This document shows positions 7,902-24,209 of a stretch of 43,843 nucleotides of DNA, one piece after another. The notes under the pieces are model-generated. The model saw only the letters and a list, made by a program, of their open reading frames with translations, searched no databases and was not told the origin of the DNA. Source of the DNA: an uncultured Ignavibacteriota bacterium (lineage in GTDB: Bacteria; Bacteroidota; Ignavibacteria; Palsa-1295); assembly GCA_903900335.1 (NCBI GenBank), contig CAIUMP010000002.1:1-43843 (forward strand), read 5' to 3'. Position numbers and translations under genes: made by a program. The first letter of the stretch is position 1. Every line of letters begins with the position of its first letter.

Positions 7902-9017
7902 ATGGTTATTCGTCCGAGTAATATCATTAGCGCAGCGGCCCTTGGGCTTGTTGTGCTATCGGTCATGTCGGTTTCGAGCTGTCGCAAACTTGTGCAGCCA
8001 ACAGCTCCACCTGTGGTGGATACTGTCGTCGTTCATCCAGATACAACGGTTCACGGTAAGGATACCACCGTCCATATTCCGGACACAACTATCCATCCTG
8101 GTGGCCCACTTAGCGCTGCGCCGGTTTCGGCAGGTGTGCTTGGCGTCAAGGCGATCGCCTCGCTTGGCAATGCTGGGGACTTCGAAGTTGACCTGTTCGT
8201 CGCCGATGCCGATGGCAAGCCGGTTTTGAATCTTCCTCCGGGCGCGCTTTCCATGCTCGGCGGATTGGATACCCTCTTTACGCCAGGTAATCTGGTGGCG
8301 GCTACGTCAGCGGTTTGTGGACCATTTTCTGCTGAGTTGTTGCTGGATCAATCCAACAGCATGGCAACGAATGATCCCTTGAATCTTCGCCTAAAGGCAG
8401 CGAAGATCTTCCTCGATGGAATCTCGCTGTTGGGCGGCGGTAAGGACGAGGTGCAGGTTTCCCAGTTCTATGATATCTATGAGGGGGGCTTGCAGACCTT
8501 TGGGCCATTCACGACGAACGGGGACTCCTTTGATCCTGCCGTGGATAACCTCGCGGGCAACCTTGGACCAGGGACACCGCTCTATGATGCGATGTATTAC
8601 ATGGTGGATTCGCTCGTCCAGCAGAGTCACAACCTGAACAAAGTACTCATCGTCTTCACCGATGGGGAAGACAACGAGTCACAGTTCGGGCTTTGGGATG
8701 CGATCAATTATGCGAAGTATAACAACGTGAAGGTTTTCGCGATCGCGCTAAAGACGGGCATCAATCTCCCTCTCATTTCTACCGCATTGAGCACAGGTGG
8801 CAGCGTTATGCACGCTGATGATGCTTCACAGCTTAGCTCCTACTTTGGATCACTCTCGAAGCAGGTGCATGGCGGCGAATCGTATTATAAGACGACGTGG
8901 CACGTCAAGGTGCCGAACGCTTACACTTTGAGCGGCCAGACCGTCACGGGGACGATGAAGATTGCCATTGCTGGTAACAAGACGGTGAACGCACCGTTTG
9001 CAGTAACCTTCCCGTAA
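7902..9017 (+). CDS. VWA-domain lipoprotein
   Basis: A 371-residue protein with a lipoprotein signal sequence ending in MSVSSC and a short Pro/Thr-rich spacer containing repeated PDTT motifs. The von Willebrand A domain (about residues 140-320) has an intact MIDAS: the DQSNSM box, a downstream Thr region near TPLYDAMYYM, and VLIVFTDGEDNES. It should bind a metal ion and a protein ligand at the outer membrane or periplasm. The start at 7902 (MVIRPSN) is preferred because it gives a normal signal peptide; ATGs at 7803 and 7875 would add residues before it. A strong terminator follows at 9045. The partner is unknown. Confidence 0.78.
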   Translation: MVIRPSNIISAAALGLVVLSVMSVSSCRKLVQPTAPPVVDTVVVHPDTTVHGKDTTVHIPDTTIHPGGPLSAAPVSAGVLGVKAIASLGNAGDFEVDLFVADADGKPVLNLPPGALSMLGGLDTLFTPGNLVAATSAVCGPFSAELLLDQSNSMATNDPLNLRLKAAKIFLDGISLLGGGKDEVQVSQFYDIYEGGLQTFGPFTTNGDSFDPAVDNLAGNLGPGTPLYDAMYYMVDSLVQQSHNLNKVLIVFTDGEDNESQFGLWDAINYAKYNNVKVFAIALKTGINLPLISTALSTGGSVMHADDASQLSSYFGSLSKQVHGGESYYKTTWHVKVPNAYTLSGQTVTGTMKIAIAGNKTVNAPFAVTFP

Positions 9018-9044
9018 GTTATGAATAGTTAGAATGCGCTTATG

Positions 9045-9073
9045 GCGCCGGAGGGAGACTTCCGGCGCTTTTT
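9045..9073 (+). terminator. Rho-independent terminator after the VWA lipoprotein gene
   Basis: A perfect 8-bp stem, GCGCCGGA (9045-9052) with TCCGGCGC (9061-9068), and an 8-base loop are followed by a run of five T. It lies 28 bases after the stop codon at 9017 and only 18 bases before the next start at 9091. Confidence 0.85.
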
Positions 9074-9078
9074 CTTTG

Positions 9079-9086
9079 TATCTTTG
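9079..9086 (+). promoter_or_regulatory. Possible Bacteroidota-type -7 element before the 9091 gene
   Basis: TATCTTTG fits the Bacteroidota consensus TAnnTTTG. It ends four bases before the ATG at 9091, which would make the transcript leaderless or nearly so. No good -33 TTG lies at the expected distance, where the terminator stem is instead, so this is tentative. Confidence 0.3.
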
Positions 9087-9090
9087 TGCA

Positions 9091-10014
9091 ATGGCGAAAC
9101 GGAAACTGCGGCTCCTGCTTGTGTTACTATCCTCGCTCTGGAGTGTCGGGTGCAGCAGCACCTGGTATTTTCCAGAAGGACTTCCGCAGCAAAAGATCTG
9201 GGTTGATACCACAGTCAACTTTCGCTCGTTCCAGACATTTGCGATGATCCCGAATTCAGCGCTCGCGAATGACCGGTCGCTGACCCAAGACGAAGAAAAT
9301 GGCCTGATGTTCTATACTGTAAATCAATTAGAATTAAGGGGTTATCGTTGTGTCGATAATTTGGATTCTGCTGATTTCGTGATATGCCAGCAGGTATCAA
9401 ATGATTATGTAAAAGGAGAGAACCTGGATCCTAGCGTTGATACGCAACTCGTGTGGCAAGCAGTTAAGCCGTTCTCGCTACTGACGAGTGGTTTTGGTAC
9501 CTACTTCGACGTTCCTATCCCTGAAAATTGGGATTATCGTGTTGTGCGGATGCACCCAAAGCTTCGGGAGACTATCTTTGATGGGAAGACACATCGGGTA
9601 ATCCGGCGCTTCGCCGGCGGCGGCGTGGTTGCCGACGAAAATTACCGCACTGCGTCGCAATACCTTATCTGGTCCTTCGGTGTCTCGCTACCGTTTGCCC
9701 GGGCGGATGGCCGAAAAGGGTTGTTCGGCACAGGCATGATGGGATTGATATTCAACATATCCAGCTATGATGGTCATAACTTTTGGCCGGTGGTCACCTC
9801 AGTTGTGTCGAAATCACCCGCCGAACATCATGAGCTAAAACCTGGTGACAACCTGCTTTCGCTTGACGGACAAAGCCTGAAGAATGTGGACGCTTTCGAC
9901 TTCCTCCGGAAAGTCCGTGGTCCACCTGGTCGGGCGCTCCACTTCCGAGTGTGGCACTGGGGAGGAAAATTGCGCGACGTGACAGTGATCATGGGGGAGC
10001 GGACCAATCCGTGA
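9091..10014 (+). CDS. DUF4136-like lipoprotein with C-terminal PDZ domain
   Basis: A 307-residue exported lipoprotein (MAKRKLRLLLVLLSSLWSVGC). Residues about 30-200 resemble DUF4136 envelope lipoproteins (FRSFQTFAMIPNS..QLELRGYRCVDNLDSADFVICQQ). The C-terminal 80 residues look like a PDZ domain (VVSKSPAEHHELKPGDNLLSLDGQSL), with the typical P-A-x-x-G..GD-x-ll-x-ldG pattern partly degraded. PDZ domains bind exposed C-termini, so a role in envelope protein quality control is plausible, but it has no protease domain. The start at 9091 is chosen over 9034 because the earlier start lies within the upstream terminator. Confidence 0.62.
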   Translation: MAKRKLRLLLVLLSSLWSVGCSSTWYFPEGLPQQKIWVDTTVNFRSFQTFAMIPNSALANDRSLTQDEENGLMFYTVNQLELRGYRCVDNLDSADFVICQQVSNDYVKGENLDPSVDTQLVWQAVKPFSLLTSGFGTYFDVPIPENWDYRVVRMHPKLRETIFDGKTHRVIRRFAGGGVVADENYRTASQYLIWSFGVSLPFARADGRKGLFGTGMMGLIFNISSYDGHNFWPVVTSVVSKSPAEHHELKPGDNLLSLDGQSLKNVDAFDFLRKVRGPPGRALHFRVWHWGGKLRDVTVIMGERTNP

Positions 10015-16164: not shown

Positions 16165-16860
16165 ATGCTCAACGAGCAACAGGGCTTCGAAACCGATCCT
16201 GATTTTCTACCGAAATTCAGCCGCCACCTGGCCCATCAGCTGAACAATCCGATCGGCGCCATCTCAAGTTGCGCCTACTTGCTGGAGGATTTCATTGCCT
16301 CATCTACCACGGGTACGCTTTCCGTCGAAGACGTGCGTCCCTTTATCACGAGCATTCGGGAAGAGTGCGAATCAATGAAGCTGCTTGTGCAAGAATTCTC
16401 CAAATTCTTTGCTACGACGGGGATCCTCACATCACCTATAGAACTTAATGAGTTCTTGGCGCACAGAGTTGACGAGATGCAACGCGGGGGCCTGCCGGTT
16501 ACGATGGTAGAGACCGAGCGGCGCAGGACAATTGAGGGAGATGCTGGAGCGGTGCAGTCGGTGATTCGAATACTCGTTGAAGATGCGATTCGCGAAGGGG
16601 CAACCACCGTCGCGATTGAACTCGGCTCAGAAGAATGGCCAGAGATCACGATTCGCGACAACCGCGTGAAGGACGTTAGTCCAGATGCGTGGACGACACA
16701 AGTGGAGGGGTTCGCGCCCCGGCACGGCGGCGGGGTTGGGCTGAAGCTTCCATTGGTCGGCAAGCTCGTGCGCTTGCATCGCGGTTCCATCGAGGCGAGC
16801 AGCGCGGATCCAACAGGCCTGATCGTCAGGATTCGACTTCCCGGAATGGCGACGGCATGA
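16165..16860 (+). CDS. Soluble, degenerate histidine kinase
   Basis: A 231-residue protein with only the dimerisation/phosphoacceptor and ATPase parts of a sensor kinase. The H-box reads HLAHQLNNPIGAISS with the likely phosphoacceptor His24. The G-box region is clear (HGGGVGLKLPLVGKLVRLHRGSIEAS), but the N-box is ILVEDAI instead of N-x-x-x-N-A, and the D-box is IRDNRVK instead of D-x-G-x-G. No sensor domain or membrane span is present. It probably receives its signal from another protein or acts as a phosphatase or pseudokinase. It lies 68 bases upstream of the NtrC-type regulator, its probable partner. Confidence 0.75.
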   Translation: MLNEQQGFETDPDFLPKFSRHLAHQLNNPIGAISSCAYLLEDFIASSTTGTLSVEDVRPFITSIREECESMKLLVQEFSKFFATTGILTSPIELNEFLAHRVDEMQRGGLPVTMVETERRRTIEGDAGAVQSVIRILVEDAIREGATTVAIELGSEEWPEITIRDNRVKDVSPDAWTTQVEGFAPRHGGGVGLKLPLVGKLVRLHRGSIEASSADPTGLIVRIRLPGMATA

Positions 16861-16928: not shown

Positions 16929-18299
16929 ATGGCAAGTGTAATTTTAGTTGACGACGAGCAGAGTGTTCTGGTAGGCTATAAGGCAATACTGGAGCGCGGG
17001 GGGCATCGGGTATCGACTGCGGGTACGGCCGAGGATGCAATACTCCTGTTCGAAAGCGAAGGTGCCGACGTCGTCGTGACCGATGTGAATATGCCAGGAA
17101 TGTCCGGCATTGAGCTACTCGGCATCATTCTCAAGCGATCTCCATGTACGGAAGTGATCGTGATGACAGGCGCCGGCTCGGAACGTACGGGCATCCAGGC
17201 AATGCAGGCGGGCGCGTACGACTATCTCCGCAAGGTAGATATCCATCCCGAGGAGCTGGTGCTACTCGTTGACAAAGCAGCCGAGAAGAGCAGCTTGCAA
17301 ATGGCGATCGCCTTGAGCACGCGTATCGCTGGGCTTCGTGAGGGATTTGAGAATATCATCGGGGAGGATCCGGCGTTGATGGAAGTGCTCCGGATCGTGA
17401 AGAAGGTTGCGCCAACGGACTCGACTGTACTCATTAATGGGGACTCCGGGACGGGAAAAGAGCTTATAGCTGAAGCGCTTCATTTGAACTCGTCTCGAAA
17501 GAACAAGCCCTTCGTGCCGATCAATTGCGGCGCGTTGCCCAAGGATCTTCAAGAAAGCGAGCTGTTCGGTTATGTCAAAGGTGCCTTCACCGGAGCGCAG
17601 GCCAATAAGAAGGGACTCTTCGAAGAGGCCAACGGTGGGACGGTCTTCCTCGACGAACTTGGCGAAATGGAGCCACCGCTGCAAGTGAAACTTCTGCGCT
17701 TCCTCCAGGATCACAAAGTCTATCGGATCGGCGACTCGAAGCCGATTCCCGTGGATATCCGAATTATTTGCGCCACGAACAAAGATCTGAAGAAGCTCAT
17801 CGCGGAGAAGAAATTCCGCGAAGATTTGTACTACCGTGTAAACGTGATATCCCTGACTCTTCCGCCGCTGCGTGATCGAAAGTCGGATATTCCGGTGCTC
17901 GCACAGTACTTTGTGGATCTTTACTGCGTTCGGTTCGGGCGTCCTGAGAGCCGACTTTCGCCGGAGGCCATGAAGGAGCTTGTCGCCTATGATTGGCCCG
18001 GAAACATTCGCGAATTGCAAAATGTGATGGAGCGCTCTGTGATCCTGGCTGAGTCGGAGGTTATAGGTTCGGAGCATTTCCCCAAAGATCTGCTCGAAGG
18101 CCATGTGAACGTGGAGAAGATGTTCGATGGCCAGCCGTCGCTGGAAGAGCTGGAGAAACGCTATATATTGGCGATACTGAAGGCATGTCGCGGCAATAAG
18201 CTGGTAACGTCTGAACGCCTTGGCATTTCTACCACCACGCTCTGGAGAAAGCTCAAGCAGTGGGGACTTACGCACGAGGCAAATTCCGAAGAAGAGTAA
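16929..18299 (+). CDS. NtrC-family sigma-54-dependent response regulator
   Basis: A 456-residue activator with three domains: a receiver domain (residues 1-120, phosphoacceptor Asp52 in VVVTDVNMPGM), an AAA+ domain (about 145-375) with Walker A GDSGTGKE (171-178), the GAFTGA loop (218-223) that contacts sigma-54, and Walker B GGTVFLDELGE, and a C-terminal Fis-type helix-turn-helix. It should bind upstream sites and open sigma-54 promoters by ATP hydrolysis. A good sigma-54 promoter lies about 320 bases downstream, before the Mla-type operon. Upstream is a soluble histidine kinase, likely its partner. Confidence 0.93.
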   Translation: MASVILVDDEQSVLVGYKAILERGGHRVSTAGTAEDAILLFESEGADVVVTDVNMPGMSGIELLGIILKRSPCTEVIVMTGAGSERTGIQAMQAGAYDYLRKVDIHPEELVLLVDKAAEKSSLQMAIALSTRIAGLREGFENIIGEDPALMEVLRIVKKVAPTDSTVLINGDSGTGKELIAEALHLNSSRKNKPFVPINCGALPKDLQESELFGYVKGAFTGAQANKKGLFEEANGGTVFLDELGEMEPPLQVKLLRFLQDHKVYRIGDSKPIPVDIRIICATNKDLKKLIAEKKFREDLYYRVNVISLTLPPLRDRKSDIPVLAQYFVDLYCVRFGRPESRLSPEAMKELVAYDWPGNIRELQNVMERSVILAESEVIGSEHFPKDLLEGHVNVEKMFDGQPSLEELEKRYILAILKACRGNKLVTSERLGISTTTLWRKLKQWGLTHEANSEEE

Positions 18300-18391: not shown

Positions 18392-18541
18392 ATGTGGTTT
18401 TTGACAACGCTACTGCTGATACTCTGGCTATCGGCGTTCATTACGTTCGGAGCAGGGGCGTACTGGGTGCATATTCTCTTGATCGTTGCGATCCTCTTCT
18501 CTGTCATGAACAGGTTTCGAAATAGAAGATCCGCTACATGA
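18392..18541 (+). CDS. Small hydrophobic lmo0937-like membrane protein (49 aa)
   Basis: A 49-residue ORF preceded by AAGGAAA about seven bases upstream of the ATG. It reads MWFLTTLLLILWLSAFITFG.. AYWVHILLIVAIL.. and ends with a basic tail (NRFRNRRSAT). Two hydrophobic segments with a W-L centre and a short glycine-containing turn match the small lmo0937-type membrane proteins, usually stress-associated; their role is not known to me in detail. It lies between the NtrC-like gene and the sigma-54 promoter, on the same strand. Confidence 0.65.
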   Translation: MWFLTTLLLILWLSAFITFGAGAYWVHILLIVAILFSVMNRFRNRRSAT

Positions 18542-18616: not shown

Positions 18617-18632
18617 TGGAACGGCCTTTGCA
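18617..18632 (+). promoter_or_regulatory. Sigma-54 (-24/-12) promoter of the Mla-type operon
   Basis: TGGAACG-GCCT-TTGCA matches the consensus TGGCACG-N4-TTGCA with a single mismatch, and the invariant GG (18618-18619) and GC (18630-18631) are exactly ten bases apart. Transcription would start near 18643, nine bases before the ATG at 18652, so the leader is unusually short. It lies about 320 bases from an NtrC-type activator with an intact GAFTGA motif. Confidence 0.72.
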
Positions 18633-18651
18633 ATAGGCAACAGTAGGAATA

Positions 18652-19527
18652 ATGGAAAACGAATCAACTGGGCAGCCGAATACTGTGTCCGCCAGCTCCG
18701 CTCCGGAGCTTGGCGGTGCCCGTGGTTTGCCGACAGCTCCTGCGCCTGCCGAAGCGGAGTCAAGCCCCCGTGTCTGGGGTACTTCGCTGATCCACCTTGG
18801 TGGACTATGGAAGTTTGGGATGCGTTTCTTTCGAGCGCTTAGCAGACCACCGTATGAGTTCAAGGAGATCATTCGGCAACTGAATGTCATCGGGTTTCGG
18901 TCGTTGTCACTGGTTTCCGTCGTTGGTGTGGTCATTGGCGCAGTTCTGACGATGCAGAGCCGGCCGGTCATGATCAAATTTGGCGCGGAAGCATTCATCC
19001 CGGCGATGGTTGCGATCAGCGTAATGCGTGAGCTCTCTCCGGTTCTGATCTCCGTCATTCTCGGTGGCCGCGTAGGGGCAGGCATCGGCGCGGAATTGGG
19101 CTCCATGAGGGCCAGCGAGCAGATCGATGCAATGGATGTTGCAGCGCTCGACCCCTATAAGTATCTTGTCTTTACGCGCGTTGTCGCTTGTATGATCGCG
19201 CTGCCACTCCTGTGTATCTACGCGGACTTCCTGGCGCTCATCGGCTCCTGGATCGTCGAACGTGTAGAGGCCGGAATGAGCGTCAACCTTTTTGTCAATA
19301 GTGTCGTAAGCAGCGTGGAGTTTTCGGACTATCTCCCCGGCGTAGCAAAGACGATCTTTTTCGGATTCACGATCGGGGTAGTTGGCTGCTATGAAGGATA
19401 CAACTCGACTGGCGGCACAGAGGGAGTAGGGAAGTCCGCGACGGACGCGGCGGTGACAAGCTCGCTACTCATCATTTTGCTGGACGTGTTGTTCGTGAAG
19501 CTCACTTTAATGATCTGGCCGCCGTGA
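18652..19527 (+). CDS. mlaE: MlaE-family ABC transporter permease (lipid transport)
   Basis: A 291-residue permease. After a Pro/Ala/Ser-rich N-terminus of about 55 residues (longer than usual), it has the MlaE core: the GMRFFRALSRPPYEFKEIIRQL amphipathic segment, then VVGVVIGAVLTMQSRP, the conserved ELSPVLISVILGGRVGAGIGAELGSMRASEQIDAMDV motif and a C-terminal pair of spans. It forms the inner-membrane channel that moves phospholipid with the ATPase and MCE protein encoded next. The stop overlaps the next start (GTGA). The sigma-54 promoter just upstream suggests conditional expression. Confidence 0.9.
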   Translation: MENESTGQPNTVSASSAPELGGARGLPTAPAPAEAESSPRVWGTSLIHLGGLWKFGMRFFRALSRPPYEFKEIIRQLNVIGFRSLSLVSVVGVVIGAVLTMQSRPVMIKFGAEAFIPAMVAISVMRELSPVLISVILGGRVGAGIGAELGSMRASEQIDAMDVAALDPYKYLVFTRVVACMIALPLLCIYADFLALIGSWIVERVEAGMSVNLFVNSVVSSVEFSDYLPGVAKTIFFGFTIGVVGCYEGYNSTGGTEGVGKSATDAAVTSSLLIILLDVLFVKLTLMIWPP

Positions 19528-20384
19528 TCCACCTCTTCAAACATGAGACAAAGGAGGAAACTCCGAAAGGGGGGATGTTGCTGCGTGTCGAACACGTATC
19601 GGTGGCGTTCGACCATCCGGTGCTTCGGGATGTGAGCATTCATGTTGCTCATGGGGAGACGCTTGCGATCCTTGGGAAGAGCGGCACTGGAAAGAGCGTG
19701 CTGTTAAAACTGATCGTCGGTTTACTTGATCCTGACAAGGGCAAGATCTTCTACAAGGACAAGGACGTCACAAATCTGAAGGAAGAAGCGCTCATGGAGC
19801 TTCGGACACAGATCGGCTTTCTGTTCCAGGGTTCGGCTCTTTTCGACTCGATGACCGTCGGGCAGAACCTGGATTTCTTTCTGTCGAAACACACCGAGCT
19901 TGAGCCGGATGCCCGAGAGAAGAAGATCGTTGAAGCATTGGATATGGTGCAACTGGGTCGCGCGATTGACAAACTTCCGTCGGAGCTTTCAGGTGGGATG
20001 AGGAAGCGAGCGGGGCTCGCCCGCTCCATTGTGCTGGAGCCAGAACTCATTCTCTATGACGAGCCTACGACTGGTCTGGACCCACTGACGGCGTCCTCCA
20101 TCGCCGAGCTTATTTTGGAGATGCAATCCCGGTTGGGAATCGCATCCATTGTCGTTACGCACGATCTGCCCACAGCGTTCACTGTGGCGGACCGCGCAGT
20201 CGTACTGAATGAAGGATACGCTGTTTTCGAAGGCAGGCTTGAGGATCTTCACGACTCCAGCGACGAGTTTCTTCGCGAGTACGTCGGGGCCTCCCATTTG
20301 GATCGGGCCAGAAGGGAAAAATTATTGGCGACGAAGCAGTGGGCGCAAGGATTACAGCACAAAACTGTGGCGCCGCCCATTTGA
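19524..20384 (+). CDS. mlaF: MlaF-type ABC transporter ATPase
   Basis: A 286-residue ATPase with Walker A GKSGTGKSVLLK (residues about 51-62), Q-loop IGFLFQGSALFDSMTVGQN, signature LSGGMRKR (LPSELSGGMRKRAGLARS), Walker B LILYDEPTTGLDP and the H-loop VTHDL. It powers the MlaE/MlaD lipid transporter. A GTG at 19524 overlaps the permease stop and is taken as start. The C-terminal part (about 30 residues after the H-loop region) resembles the MlaF extension that contacts partners. Confidence 0.9.
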   Translation: MIHLFKHETKEETPKGGMLLRVEHVSVAFDHPVLRDVSIHVAHGETLAILGKSGTGKSVLLKLIVGLLDPDKGKIFYKDKDVTNLKEEALMELRTQIGFLFQGSALFDSMTVGQNLDFFLSKHTELEPDAREKKIVEALDMVQLGRAIDKLPSELSGGMRKRAGLARSIVLEPELILYDEPTTGLDPLTASSIAELILEMQSRLGIASIVVTHDLPTAFTVADRAVVLNEGYAVFEGRLEDLHDSSDEFLREYVGASHLDRARREKLLATKQWAQGLQHKTVAPPI

Positions 20385-20447: not shown

Positions 20448-21440
20448 ATGAAGCGTAAAGCCGTACCATTACTTAGAATCGGGATATTTGTCCTCGTGGG
20501 CTTTATACTTCTGATCGTCTTTATCTTCTACTTGGGGAGCAAGGAGAAGATGTTCTCTTCGACATCGGAAGTGAAGGCTCGTTTCGCTACGGTCAGCAGC
20601 CTGAAACGCGGGGCGGAAGTGGACATGGCTGGGATCAGCGTGGGAAGCGTAAAGGAGATCGAGTTGCCGAAAAATGCCCGGGACTCCGTCACGGTCACCA
20701 TGAAGATCATCACGGACGCGCTGAAACTGATCCATACGGATTCCAAAGCATCCATCACAACGCAGGGGATCATCGGGGACAAGGTCATCTTCATTTCGAT
20801 GGGAGGAGATTCAACCGCTGCCGTCGCACCCGGAAGTATGATCGGAGGGCTTGGGTCACCGGACTATACGCGTATCTATGATACACTCCTAAACGTCGTT
20901 TCTCAGCTCGATTCCGTTGCGGTCGCCGCAACGCAGTTGATCCAGAAATTGCACTCTGGCAACGGCACCCTGGCAAAGCTTGTCAATGACGACGGCCTCT
21001 ATAACAACGCGAACGCTGCAGCAAGCGCCGTGCGCAGTACCCTGGAGCATGCCAACGGAGCAATGGAGAAGATCTCTGGTGGCGTGGACTCGTTCACACA
21101 TCAGATGAGTGACATCATTGGCAAAGTGAACCGGGGAGAGGGATCGATCGGGAAGCTGCTTACCAGCGAGGATATATACGACAATGTGAAGAAGACCACG
21201 GAGAACCTGATCACCTCCACAGACGACCTGCACGACGCGTTGGCAAAGATCGCGCTGGCCTCCGGCCGAGCGGCAGAGATCACCGAGGCCTTCAAGCACA
21301 ATTTCCTGGTCAAGGGCTACTTTGAGGATCGCGGATTCTGGGATGCACCGGAATTTGAAATGACGATCGACAGAAAGATCGATTCTCTCAAACGTATTCA
21401 GCGTGCGATCCAACAGCAAAAAGAGCATGCACCCCATTAG
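20448..21440 (+). CDS. mlaD: MlaD/MCE-domain protein
   Basis: A 330-residue protein with one N-terminal anchor (residues about 8-28, LLRIGIFVLVGFILLIVFIFY), an MCE domain (about 38-130; FATVSSLKRGAEVDMAGISVGSVKEIEL, GIIGDKVIFISMGG), and a long C-terminal alpha-helical region with two repeated HSGNGTLAKLVNDDGLY / NRGEGSIGKLLTSEDIYDN segments, as in Bacteroidota MCE proteins. It is the lipid-binding ring of the transport system. No outer-membrane or periplasmic Mla partner (MlaA, MlaC) gene is present in the window. Confidence 0.9.
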   Translation: MKRKAVPLLRIGIFVLVGFILLIVFIFYLGSKEKMFSSTSEVKARFATVSSLKRGAEVDMAGISVGSVKEIELPKNARDSVTVTMKIITDALKLIHTDSKASITTQGIIGDKVIFISMGGDSTAAVAPGSMIGGLGSPDYTRIYDTLLNVVSQLDSVAVAATQLIQKLHSGNGTLAKLVNDDGLYNNANAAASAVRSTLEHANGAMEKISGGVDSFTHQMSDIIGKVNRGEGSIGKLLTSEDIYDNVKKTTENLITSTDDLHDALAKIALASGRAAEITEAFKHNFLVKGYFEDRGFWDAPEFEMTIDRKIDSLKRIQRAIQQQKEHAPH

Positions 21441-21499: not shown

Positions 21500-23410
21500 A
21501 TGTTTAGGAGCCTTCACACCAAGATCCTTGCAGGTTTTCTCCTGGTCATAGCACTGATGGGGCTCCTCGGGGTGTGGACCGTAAGGAATATGGCCGAGAT
21601 CCAGGATCGAACAAGTGCCGCCATCCAGGATCGATTCGAGATACTCAGCGCGCTCGACCAACTGGACGCCTCTGCCGCAAGGATGCGAAGTGCCTCGATC
21701 CAGTTGCTCGACAACCGTTCTGATCCGGACGTCGTGTCACAGTATCGCACCTGCGAATCCTCCATCACAGCAGCACTGCAGAAAGTTGCTGCGGTCAAAA
21801 CTCACCTCGCTAATAAGCCCGATCTCTTTCTCTCTTTCGAGGAGATCCTACGTTTGGCCTCGAGCATCCACACTCAGGTCCAGTTGGACCCGACGGTGGA
21901 CTTGTCGAAGCTAAGAGGGGACAGGCCCAGACAACAACCGTCGGCACTCGCTGTAAGCCGGAGAGGCATGGTGACGCATCAAATGGATTCACTCTTCGAC
22001 AATTTGAATAGCGATATACGCCTATTCCAAAGCAATTACCTTGGCTCCCTGGGCCGCCTGGCATTTTCGTCTCAAGAGGAGCAACGGAAGATCGGAGCCG
22101 TCGTTGCCCTTCTTTCTGTCTCGATGTTCCTACTCTGCATCCTATTCTCGATCCGATTCTCGAGCCTCCTTGTGCGGCCAATTATTGAACTGACCACCAT
22201 GACCAAGCGGATCGCTGCAGGGGAGTTGCGTCAGGTTGTAACACCGCGATCTAATGACGAGGTGGGGAGACTCGGTCAGCAGTTCAATCTCATGGCCCAG
22301 AAGCTTGGGGAGTACGAAGATCTCAATGTGAAGAAGATTCTGGAGGAGAAGGCGATCTCGGAGTCGATCGTACAATCCATGGACGATGCGCTCGTGCTGG
22401 TTGATAGGAATGGGAAAATCCTATCGGTAAACCGGCGAGCGCAGGAGCTACTGGGACTCAGAGACGTGATCGGCAAGGATTGCCTGGTGGCAGCACGAGG
22501 CGTGCCTGTACTGGAGACTCTCTGCGGCGCGGCGCTAACCGGAAGCTGGCGTGAAGAACACGCGCTGGAAACTGTTGAGTACGAACTGCTGGGCAAGAAG
22601 CTGTACCTCACCCGAGACGTCATCCCGATACGCTCTGGCGAATCGTCGGAGACAGTCGGTTACCTGCTGCTTCTCCGCAACGTCACCGCCTCTCACCAAC
22701 TCGAAAGGATGCGCTCCGACTTCGTTGGGATGGTCTCCCATGAGCTACGTACACCTCTGACGGCAATACGAATGAGCGTGGATCTCTTAGGCGAGCCAGC
22801 ACTAGGTCCGATGAGCGAAACGCAGCACCAATTCGTGGAGGCAATTCACGAAGAAAGCGACCGCTTGCTTCGTATTGTTAACGATCTCGTGGATTTGTCC
22901 AAAATGGAGTCGGGAAAGTTCGATATTCGCGCTCAACCAATCGAATTGGCATCATTTTTCGAGCATCTCCTAATACCATTCCGAGCATCGGCGCACGAAT
23001 CCGGCATTACGATCGTGACACAGTTGGACAACGAAGTGCCCAGCGTATCTGCTGATTCGGATAGGCTCAAGCAGGTCTTTGTTAACTTGATTTCTAACGC
23101 GCTTCGCTACACCCCGGCCGGCGGACAGATCACGATCGGGGTTCGAACATCGGTGGTCAGCGATGGTTTGGTTCACTTCTTCGTTCGGGACACAGGCAGC
23201 GGGATAGAGCCGGAGTTCCTTCCGAAGATCTTTCAGCGATTCGCTATCCAGAGTTCGGATGCAAAATCTGGGACAGGGCTTGGTTTGGCGATCGCAAAGG
23301 AGATCGTGCAGGCGCATGGTGGGGCCATCGAGGTTTCCAGCGTACCCGGAGAGGGTACCGAATTCTGGTTTACCATCCCTTTGGTGAACCGAGGCCACGT
23401 GCGCTCGTAG
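21500..23410 (+). CDS. Membrane sensor histidine kinase (HAMP-PAS-HisKA-HATPase)
   Basis: A 636-residue kinase. Two membrane spans (residues about 9-28 and 199-220) flank a periplasmic sensor of about 170 mostly helical residues. HAMP follows (about 221-273), then a PAS domain (about 289-400, SMDDALVLVDRNGKILSVNRRAQELLG), HisKA with His414 (MVSHELRTPL), and the ATPase with all boxes: NLISNALRYTP (N-box), VRDTGSGIEPEFL, and KSGTGLGLAIAKEIVQAHGG. The overall layout resembles KinB/NtrY-type kinases. It sits directly upstream of a response regulator with TPRs, its likely partner, and downstream of the Mla-type operon. Confidence 0.92.
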   Translation: MFRSLHTKILAGFLLVIALMGLLGVWTVRNMAEIQDRTSAAIQDRFEILSALDQLDASAARMRSASIQLLDNRSDPDVVSQYRTCESSITAALQKVAAVKTHLANKPDLFLSFEEILRLASSIHTQVQLDPTVDLSKLRGDRPRQQPSALAVSRRGMVTHQMDSLFDNLNSDIRLFQSNYLGSLGRLAFSSQEEQRKIGAVVALLSVSMFLLCILFSIRFSSLLVRPIIELTTMTKRIAAGELRQVVTPRSNDEVGRLGQQFNLMAQKLGEYEDLNVKKILEEKAISESIVQSMDDALVLVDRNGKILSVNRRAQELLGLRDVIGKDCLVAARGVPVLETLCGAALTGSWREEHALETVEYELLGKKLYLTRDVIPIRSGESSETVGYLLLLRNVTASHQLERMRSDFVGMVSHELRTPLTAIRMSVDLLGEPALGPMSETQHQFVEAIHEESDRLLRIVNDLVDLSKMESGKFDIRAQPIELASFFEHLLIPFRASAHESGITIVTQLDNEVPSVSADSDRLKQVFVNLISNALRYTPAGGQITIGVRTSVVSDGLVHFFVRDTGSGIEPEFLPKIFQRFAIQSSDAKSGTGLGLAIAKEIVQAHGGAIEVSSVPGEGTEFWFTIPLVNRGHVRS

Positions 23411-23468
23411 TCGGGAGGTGGGGCGGAAACAAGGGTTTTATTACTCAGCAACTTTAGGAAACGTGCTC

Positions 23469-24209
23469 ATGGCTGACTTTGATACAGATGAGATGACGAT
23501 TACGCGCACGGCAGAGCTCGAACTCGCCGGATTCGAGGCATCGCGTCGGACCAGCTCCCACCCGAAACGACGGGTGCTGGTCGTTGATGACGAGAAGAAT
23601 ATTCGGATGACCGTACAGCACGCGTTGCTATCCCTGGATTACGAAGTAGAAACCGCAAGCGACGGACTTGAAGGGCTCTACAAGTTTAAGGAGGGTACCT
23701 ACGACCTTGTGATAATGGATCTCCGAATGCCGCAGTTGAATGGTATCGAGATGCTCCGGGAGATCCGGCGTAGCGACAGCCAAACCGCCGCAGTTGTCAT
23801 AACGGCCTATCTTACCATCGACACCTTGCTTGAAGCATTTTCGCTTGGGGTCTCCGATTATATCCGTAAGCCATTCTCACCGAATGACATTCGTGAGACG
23901 GTGAAGCGGGTTTTGGAAAGGGAGCATCTTGATCTAGGTCATCCAAGCGAACAGGCAATCGCCAATCTCGAGGCCTCAAGAAAAGCGCTGGCTGAGCAGG
24001 ACATGCCACGCGCCCTGGACCTTGCGAACGAGGCGGTGGATAAGAACGCAAATAACCCGGATGCACAGGCCTTTCTTGGCATCCTCGATCATCTTGCGAA
24101 CATGCCCAAGGCAGCAGAGCATCGATTTCGTGAAGCCCTTCTCTTAGACCCGCAGCACAAACTCAGCCGGGACTACCTTTTCTGGATCCAATCAAAGCCA
24201 AAGAAGTAA
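23469..24209 (+). CDS. Response regulator with C-terminal TPRs
   Basis: A 246-residue protein. A 33-residue acidic/polar N-terminal arm precedes a receiver domain (about 34-155) with acid pocket DDEKN, phosphoacceptor Asp84 (VIMDLRMP), and the later Thr/Ala (ITAY) and Lys (RKPF) switch residues. The C-terminal 80 residues form TPR-like helices (ALAEQDMPRALDLANEAVDKNANNPDAQAFLGILD). There is no DNA-binding domain, so the output is probably protein-protein contact. The start at 23469 is used because AGGAA lies eight bases upstream; an in-frame ATG at 23418 would add 17 residues. It is coupled to the kinase at 21500. Confidence 0.88.
   Translation: MADFDTDEMTITRTAELELAGFEASRRTSSHPKRRVLVVDDEKNIRMTVQHALLSLDYEVETASDGLEGLYKFKEGTYDLVIMDLRMPQLNGIEMLREIRRSDSQTAAVVITAYLTIDTLLEAFSLGVSDYIRKPFSPNDIRETVKRVLEREHLDLGHPSEQAIANLEASRKALAEQDMPRALDLANEAVDKNANNPDAQAFLGILDHLANMPKAAEHRFREALLLDPQHKLSRDYLFWIQSKPKK

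Follow-up and report, generated by a model that had tools for sequence, protein, structure and literature searches.

Is the operon of an MlaEFD-type lipid transporter in this genome switched on by sigma-54 and a neighbouring NtrC-type activator? The question is raised by a stretch of 43,843 nucleotides (the window), contig C2 of the 4.0-Mb draft genome (G000; 100% complete by estimate) of an uncultured Ignavibacteriota bacterium, in which a -24/-12-like block stands directly in front of mlaE. Work on lipid transporters of the MlaEFD type usually treats them as constantly running upkeep systems. If this one is indeed under strict sigma-54 control, it could be shut off completely and would be brought into play by a two-component signal, in a host group, the uncultivated soil Bacteroidota of the Kapabacteria group, of whose gene control little is known. 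We hold it to be highly probable that the block is a working sigma-54 promoter of mlaE-mlaF-mlaD-HK2-RR2, opened under a signal by the activator encoded at 16929-18299.

The element before mlaE and its neighbourhood

Positions 18617-18632 of the plus strand read TGGAACGGCCTTTGCA, with exact GG-N10-GC spacing and one mismatch to the consensus TGGCACGNNNNTTGCW (TGGCAYR-N4-TTGCW), an A for C at position 4. The element, TGGAACG-N4-TTGCA with the spacer GCCT, ends 19 bases before the mlaE ATG (18652) and begins 318 bases after the activator stop (18299). The sequence-only reading had described the same element, about 20 bases before the permease gene and about 320 after that of the activator; both distances hold, and a small gene within the latter stretch had been overlooked. 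With a start placed 12 nt after the C of the -12 element, the predicted leader would be 9 nt long (18643-18651, plus strand), with AGGA ahead of the ATG. Such a short leader, also predicted in that reading, is conserved: of six congeners measured, five have 8-11 nt, and in G004 the predicted length is 32 nt. The search for an RNA element around the site returned a sub-threshold match to a miRNA family and nothing else; we attribute the match to chance and rejected such an element.

On both strands of the window, TGGAACGGCCTTTGCA is the sole site with at most one mismatch and intact GG and GC. Second-order Markov random windows contain a mean of 0.375 such sites, or about 4e-4 per 100-base promoter. 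When two mismatches were allowed, 9 sites were observed and 7.6 expected, which is no excess. The whole genome holds two occurrences of TGGMACGNNNNTTGCW, counting the promoter site itself; the other (C18:34491) falls within a nadB-like coding frame and was ruled out as a co-regulated promoter. By window statistics alone, the element is only moderately unusual, a fair lead and not decisive.

No convincing sigma-54 site was found before the TPR, HK, activator, DUF5670, mlaF, mlaD, HK2 or RR2 genes described below, and no conserved one ahead of the second MlaE copy of this genome and its congeners. Genome-wide matches to TGGMAYNNNNNTTGC numbered 45 as against 34 for the reversed control, and most of those inspected lay in open frames; we found this count unconvincing as evidence of a regulon. 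Across the genus, TTGGAAY-N5-TTGC occurs 51 times and the reversed control 14 times, a comparison of little weight since the control loses base order. The next best intergenic sigma-54 candidate observed in the genome, TGGCATTGGCTTTGCT (L150, C41:29118), lies 29 bases ahead of a 296-residue frame with a secreted-protein-like start. We also observed TGGAATCGTGATTGCC in identical form at C10:31568, C31:43769 and C33:77735 (L131, L144 and L145), each time opposite an open frame of 541-804 codons, which looks like a repeated gene rather than a promoter.

The genes of the window run in the order TPR (14317), HK (16165), activator (16929), DUF5670 (18392), mlaE, mlaF, mlaD, HK2 (21500) and RR2 (23418), those from HK to RR2 on the plus strand. 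HK (16165-16860) is a soluble histidine kinase with HisKA and HATPase_c domains and no sensor domain recognised by Pfam; its orthologs adjoin the activator gene in four congeners (G001, G004, G005 and G006), and it is the probable partner of the activator. The activator itself (16929-18299) is an NtrC-type response regulator with a receiver, an AAA+ domain and a Fis-type HTH. All its hallmarks are present: D52, Walker A/B (171-178), GAFTGA (residues 218-223, intact as had been noted earlier), arginine fingers (R303 is the counterpart of PspF R168 in an alignment of the FRxDLxxR motif), and the HTH at 404-445. The overlooked gene (18392-18541), between activator and promoter, encodes a 49-residue DUF5670 (lmo0937-type) membrane protein.

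Downstream of the element, mlaE (18652-19527) is the first gene of the operon and encodes an MlaE-family permease. It overlaps by 4 bases the gene for an MlaF-type ATPase (19524-20384), which is followed by that for an MlaD/MCE-domain protein (20448-21440). After a gap of 60 bases comes HK2 (21500-23410), a membrane histidine kinase with a 4HB sensor region, HAMP, PAS, HisKA and HATPase domains, which follows mlaD in the same four congeners as well and probably shares a transcript with mlaEFD. RR2 (23418-24209), a receiver-domain regulator without a recognised DNA-binding domain, would be the last gene of this transcript. Since the spacing is tight and the gene after RR2 lies on the opposite strand, the five genes mlaE to RR2 are probably all transcribed from this promoter.

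Conservation across the genus

The earlier reading had named two computational checks, a search for rpoN and a look at the site before mlaE in relatives, and both came out in its favour. The genome contains rpoN (E = 1.5e-53, RpoN box ARRTVAKYRE) and eight full sigma-54 activators. We compared six other species of the genus, G001 to G006, with the window genome, and rpoN is retained in all seven. The sites before mlaE read TGGAACGTGCATTGCG in G001, TGGAATACGCATTGCT in G004, TGGAATAGGCATTGCT in G005 and TGGAATACACCTTGCT in G006. Every species whose activator is intact, five with the window genome, has TGGAA-N6-TTGC a short way before mlaE. In the two congeners without an intact activator, the -24 GG is lost.

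When the five species were aligned, all 8 consensus positions were invariant, as against 5 of the 93 other columns. Because the alignment was anchored on the motif, the Fisher value, 6e-9, looks rather better than it should. Free of that anchor, all four relatives would carry TGGAA-N6-TTGC somewhere in the 110 positions upstream with a chance of about 4e-14, a figure that assumes independence and a word defined after the sites were seen. The 13 bases directly upstream of the site are 56% identical, and the further flanks are 26% identical, as unrelated DNA would be. Among these genomes synonymous changes have come close to saturation or passed it, and neutral DNA should therefore no longer show similarity. 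A chance match, with mlaE transcribed from further upstream or by a promoter that escaped detection, would suit the window counts, where two-mismatch sites are no commoner than expected, and the chance occurrence of the same consensus in the nadB-like frame. That four diverged relatives carry the site in the same position makes a chance origin of TGGAACGGCCTTTGCA improbable on conservation already; we rejected it on these grounds and give it hardly any credence.

Both G001 and G004 have the gene arrangement of the window. In G005 and G006, TPR, HK, activator and DUF5670 are found on one contig and mlaEFD, HK2 and RR2 on another, and the site remains with mlaE. Because it is kept there despite the separate loci, the site is not a by-product of gene order. 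The DUF5670 gene accompanies the kinase-activator pair rather than mlaE, even in these two species with mlaEFD elsewhere.

Further out in the class, none of 19 members (L015-L033) has a site of such quality before mlaE, and sigma-54 control of mlaE appears, from these comparisons, to be confined to this genus. In the related genera G007, G008, G010 and G012 the TPR gene adjoins mlaE, and kinase and activator do not lie between them. It is likely that a kinase-activator-DUF5670 block entered the space between the TPR gene and mlaE in the common ancestor of the genus, and that the -24/-12 element was gained with it. In G008 and G012 (L011 and L012) the TPR gene is separated from mlaE by a hairpin that resembles a terminator (GGCACGTC...GACGTGCCTTGCGTTTTT), so that mlaE would need its own promoter in these sister genera too. 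In G010 (L014), which belongs to another genus of the family and has no adjacent activator, TGGCATGTAATGTGCA lies 99 bases upstream of the portion of mlaE that was matched, with GG-N10-GC spacing and one mismatch to TGGCAYG-N4-TTGCW; it could be either chance or an independent sigma-54 promoter.

Loss of the -24 GG together with the activator

The sequences before mlaE in G002 and G003 read TAGAATGAGCGTTGCG and TCGAATTAGGCATTGC, respectively. The -24 GG is gone in both, and both retain the motif residue GAA...TTGC. Activator orthologs are 76-78% identical in G001, G004, G005 and G006 and 60% in G002; G003 has none, its best match being a 47% paralog. The MlaEFD tree pairs G002 with G001 (support 100) and G003 with G004 (86) as sisters, so the GG was lost on two separate occasions. 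No orthologs of HK, HK2 or RR2 were found in G002 and G003, and rpoN, mlaE, mlaF and mlaD are all retained in them.

The activator frame of G002 (L161, bases 8121-9458, minus strand) is still open, and it evolves fast: its identity to the G001 copy is 65%, whereas the G001 copy shares 82-84% with those of G004-G006, to which it is less closely related. Its changes include D52N at the phospho-acceptor, T221A, which turns GAFTGA into GAFAGA, R303C in an arginine finger and E178K in Walker A; the recognition helix ERLGISTTTLWRKLK is unchanged. In PspF, the T86A mutant, altered at the same GAFTGA position, keeps its ATPase but does not engage the sigma-54 closed complex (PMC4132715). The G002 protein may be decaying, or may be becoming a sigma-54-independent regulator.

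The states of the -24 GG and of the activator agree in all seven genomes. By our own arithmetic, two losses would match two losses among seven tips by chance about once in 21, and the agreement taken alone supports rather than proves a link. The co-loss gains weight because it agrees with the sequence conservation and with the nature of the residues lost. Taken as a sequence comparison, the paired decay in two separate relatives is good evidence that promoter and activator work as a pair.

The same data bear on two other explanations. The block could be another kind of promoter or operator, bound by a repressor or by a sigma factor of the housekeeping or ECF class, that resembles a -24/-12 element by chance. 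The conservation does reach GCAG/GAGT just upstream, beyond the consensus, the G002 block reads TTAGAATG, near a -10 hexamer, and part of the block survives in G003, which has no activator; a GAA...TTGC residue is perhaps unexpected of a freely decaying site and counts against the sigma-54 reading. We nevertheless consider such an element very unlikely, given that the positions which do not vary belong to the sigma-54 consensus and keep its exact spacing, that a search ahead of mlaE detected no sigma-70-like site, and that loss of the -24 GG goes with loss of GAFTGA, the part of the activator that contacts sigma-54. Alternatively, the site could be a real sigma-54 promoter served by another activator, the neighbouring one controlling something else. 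Eight full activators are encoded in the genome, G005 and G006 have the activator gene away from mlaE, and no enhancer motif ties it to mlaE: searches for dyads and gapped words upstream gave nothing common, though degenerate sites would escape them. Against this, the -24 GG disappeared in just those species in which this activator is missing or damaged but the other activators and rpoN are retained, and we regard control by another activator as unlikely.

Proposed mechanism and known systems

From the site, the gene set, their conservation and the repeated co-loss we infer the following course of transcription, with its phosphorylation partners, signal and HK2/RR2 feedback. RpoN-polymerase would wait on 18617-18632 as a closed complex. 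The kinase encoded at 16165-16860, and possibly HK2 too, would phosphorylate the activator (16929-18299), which would then open the promoter through its GAFTGA loop and ATP hydrolysis, presumably in preference to the seven other activators of the genome. The lipid transporter and HK2/RR2 would thus be made only under the signal. Pfam recognises no sensor domain in HK, so a cytosolic cue may supply the input, or else the membrane kinase HK2, with its four-helix-bundle sensor region, may do so. That HK and HK2 were lost together hints, short of showing it, that both kinases signal to the activator.

More tentatively, the locus could form a closed envelope-lipid circuit, in which two kinases and the NtrC-type activator drive MlaEFD with feedback through HK2 and the receiver protein, and from which two lineages escaped sigma-54 by losing the -24 GG; we see this extended scheme as possible rather than probable. 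The -24 change in G002 creates TAGAAT, a possible -10 hexamer, and if the scheme is true, G002 would show in nature how a promoter passes from one sigma class to another while its activator decays. With promoter and activator both decayed in the two relatives, the genus provides a natural before/after comparison for an operon leaving sigma-54 control.

MlaE, MlaF and MlaD all match their families. No match to MlaC (PF05494) was found in the genome, complete by estimate, and the MlaE and MlaD scores are under the curated cut-offs for E. coli-type equivalogs. As judged from these matches, the operon is the MlaEFD core and not the full Mla pathway, and the controlled transporter is best called an MlaEFD/MCE-type lipid transporter; with a second MlaE copy in the genome, it is perhaps the conditional one of two MlaE-type transporters. 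The activator-dependent sigma-54 control proposed in the sequence-only reading is thus largely supported by conservation and co-loss, with an MlaEFD core in place of the Mla-type operon. That reading had also tied the site to outer-membrane lipid balance; MlaEFD genes do follow the site, and the tie itself is an extrapolation in a genome with no MlaC found.

Sigma-54 has been linked with the cell exterior (Francke 2011, PMC3162934; a cross-phylum regulon study of 2025, PMC12316311), and envelope and lipid functions recur under its control, for example a lipid A gene in Desulfovibrio (PMC4641369). A text search of the main text of PMC3162934 and PMC12316311 gave no mention of Mla or MlaE, and the literature searched, mostly outside subscription journals, yielded no report of an mlaE gene or mla operon controlled by RpoN/sigma-54. 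An MlaE-type permease of Bradyrhizobium is induced in low oxygen and is marked as outside the NifA/RpoN regulon (PMC6515984).

Like the sigma-54 systems of the NtrC/AtoC/ZraR/FlgR class, the locus combines a GG-N10-GC element, RpoN, an activator made of a receiver, a GAFTGA AAA+ domain and a Fis-type HTH, and an adjoining kinase gene; the best NCBIfam scores of the activator are to AtoC and NtrC, below the equivalog cut-offs. It differs from that class in its MlaEFD target, the absence of a detected enhancer motif, the predicted leader of about 9 nt and a kinase without a recognisable sensor. With the Mla/Ttg2/MCE systems it shares an MlaE permease, an MlaF ATPase and an MCE-domain MlaD in one operon, and it departs from them in lacking a detected MlaC, in scores below the equivalog cut-offs and in having a probable sigma-54 promoter in front.
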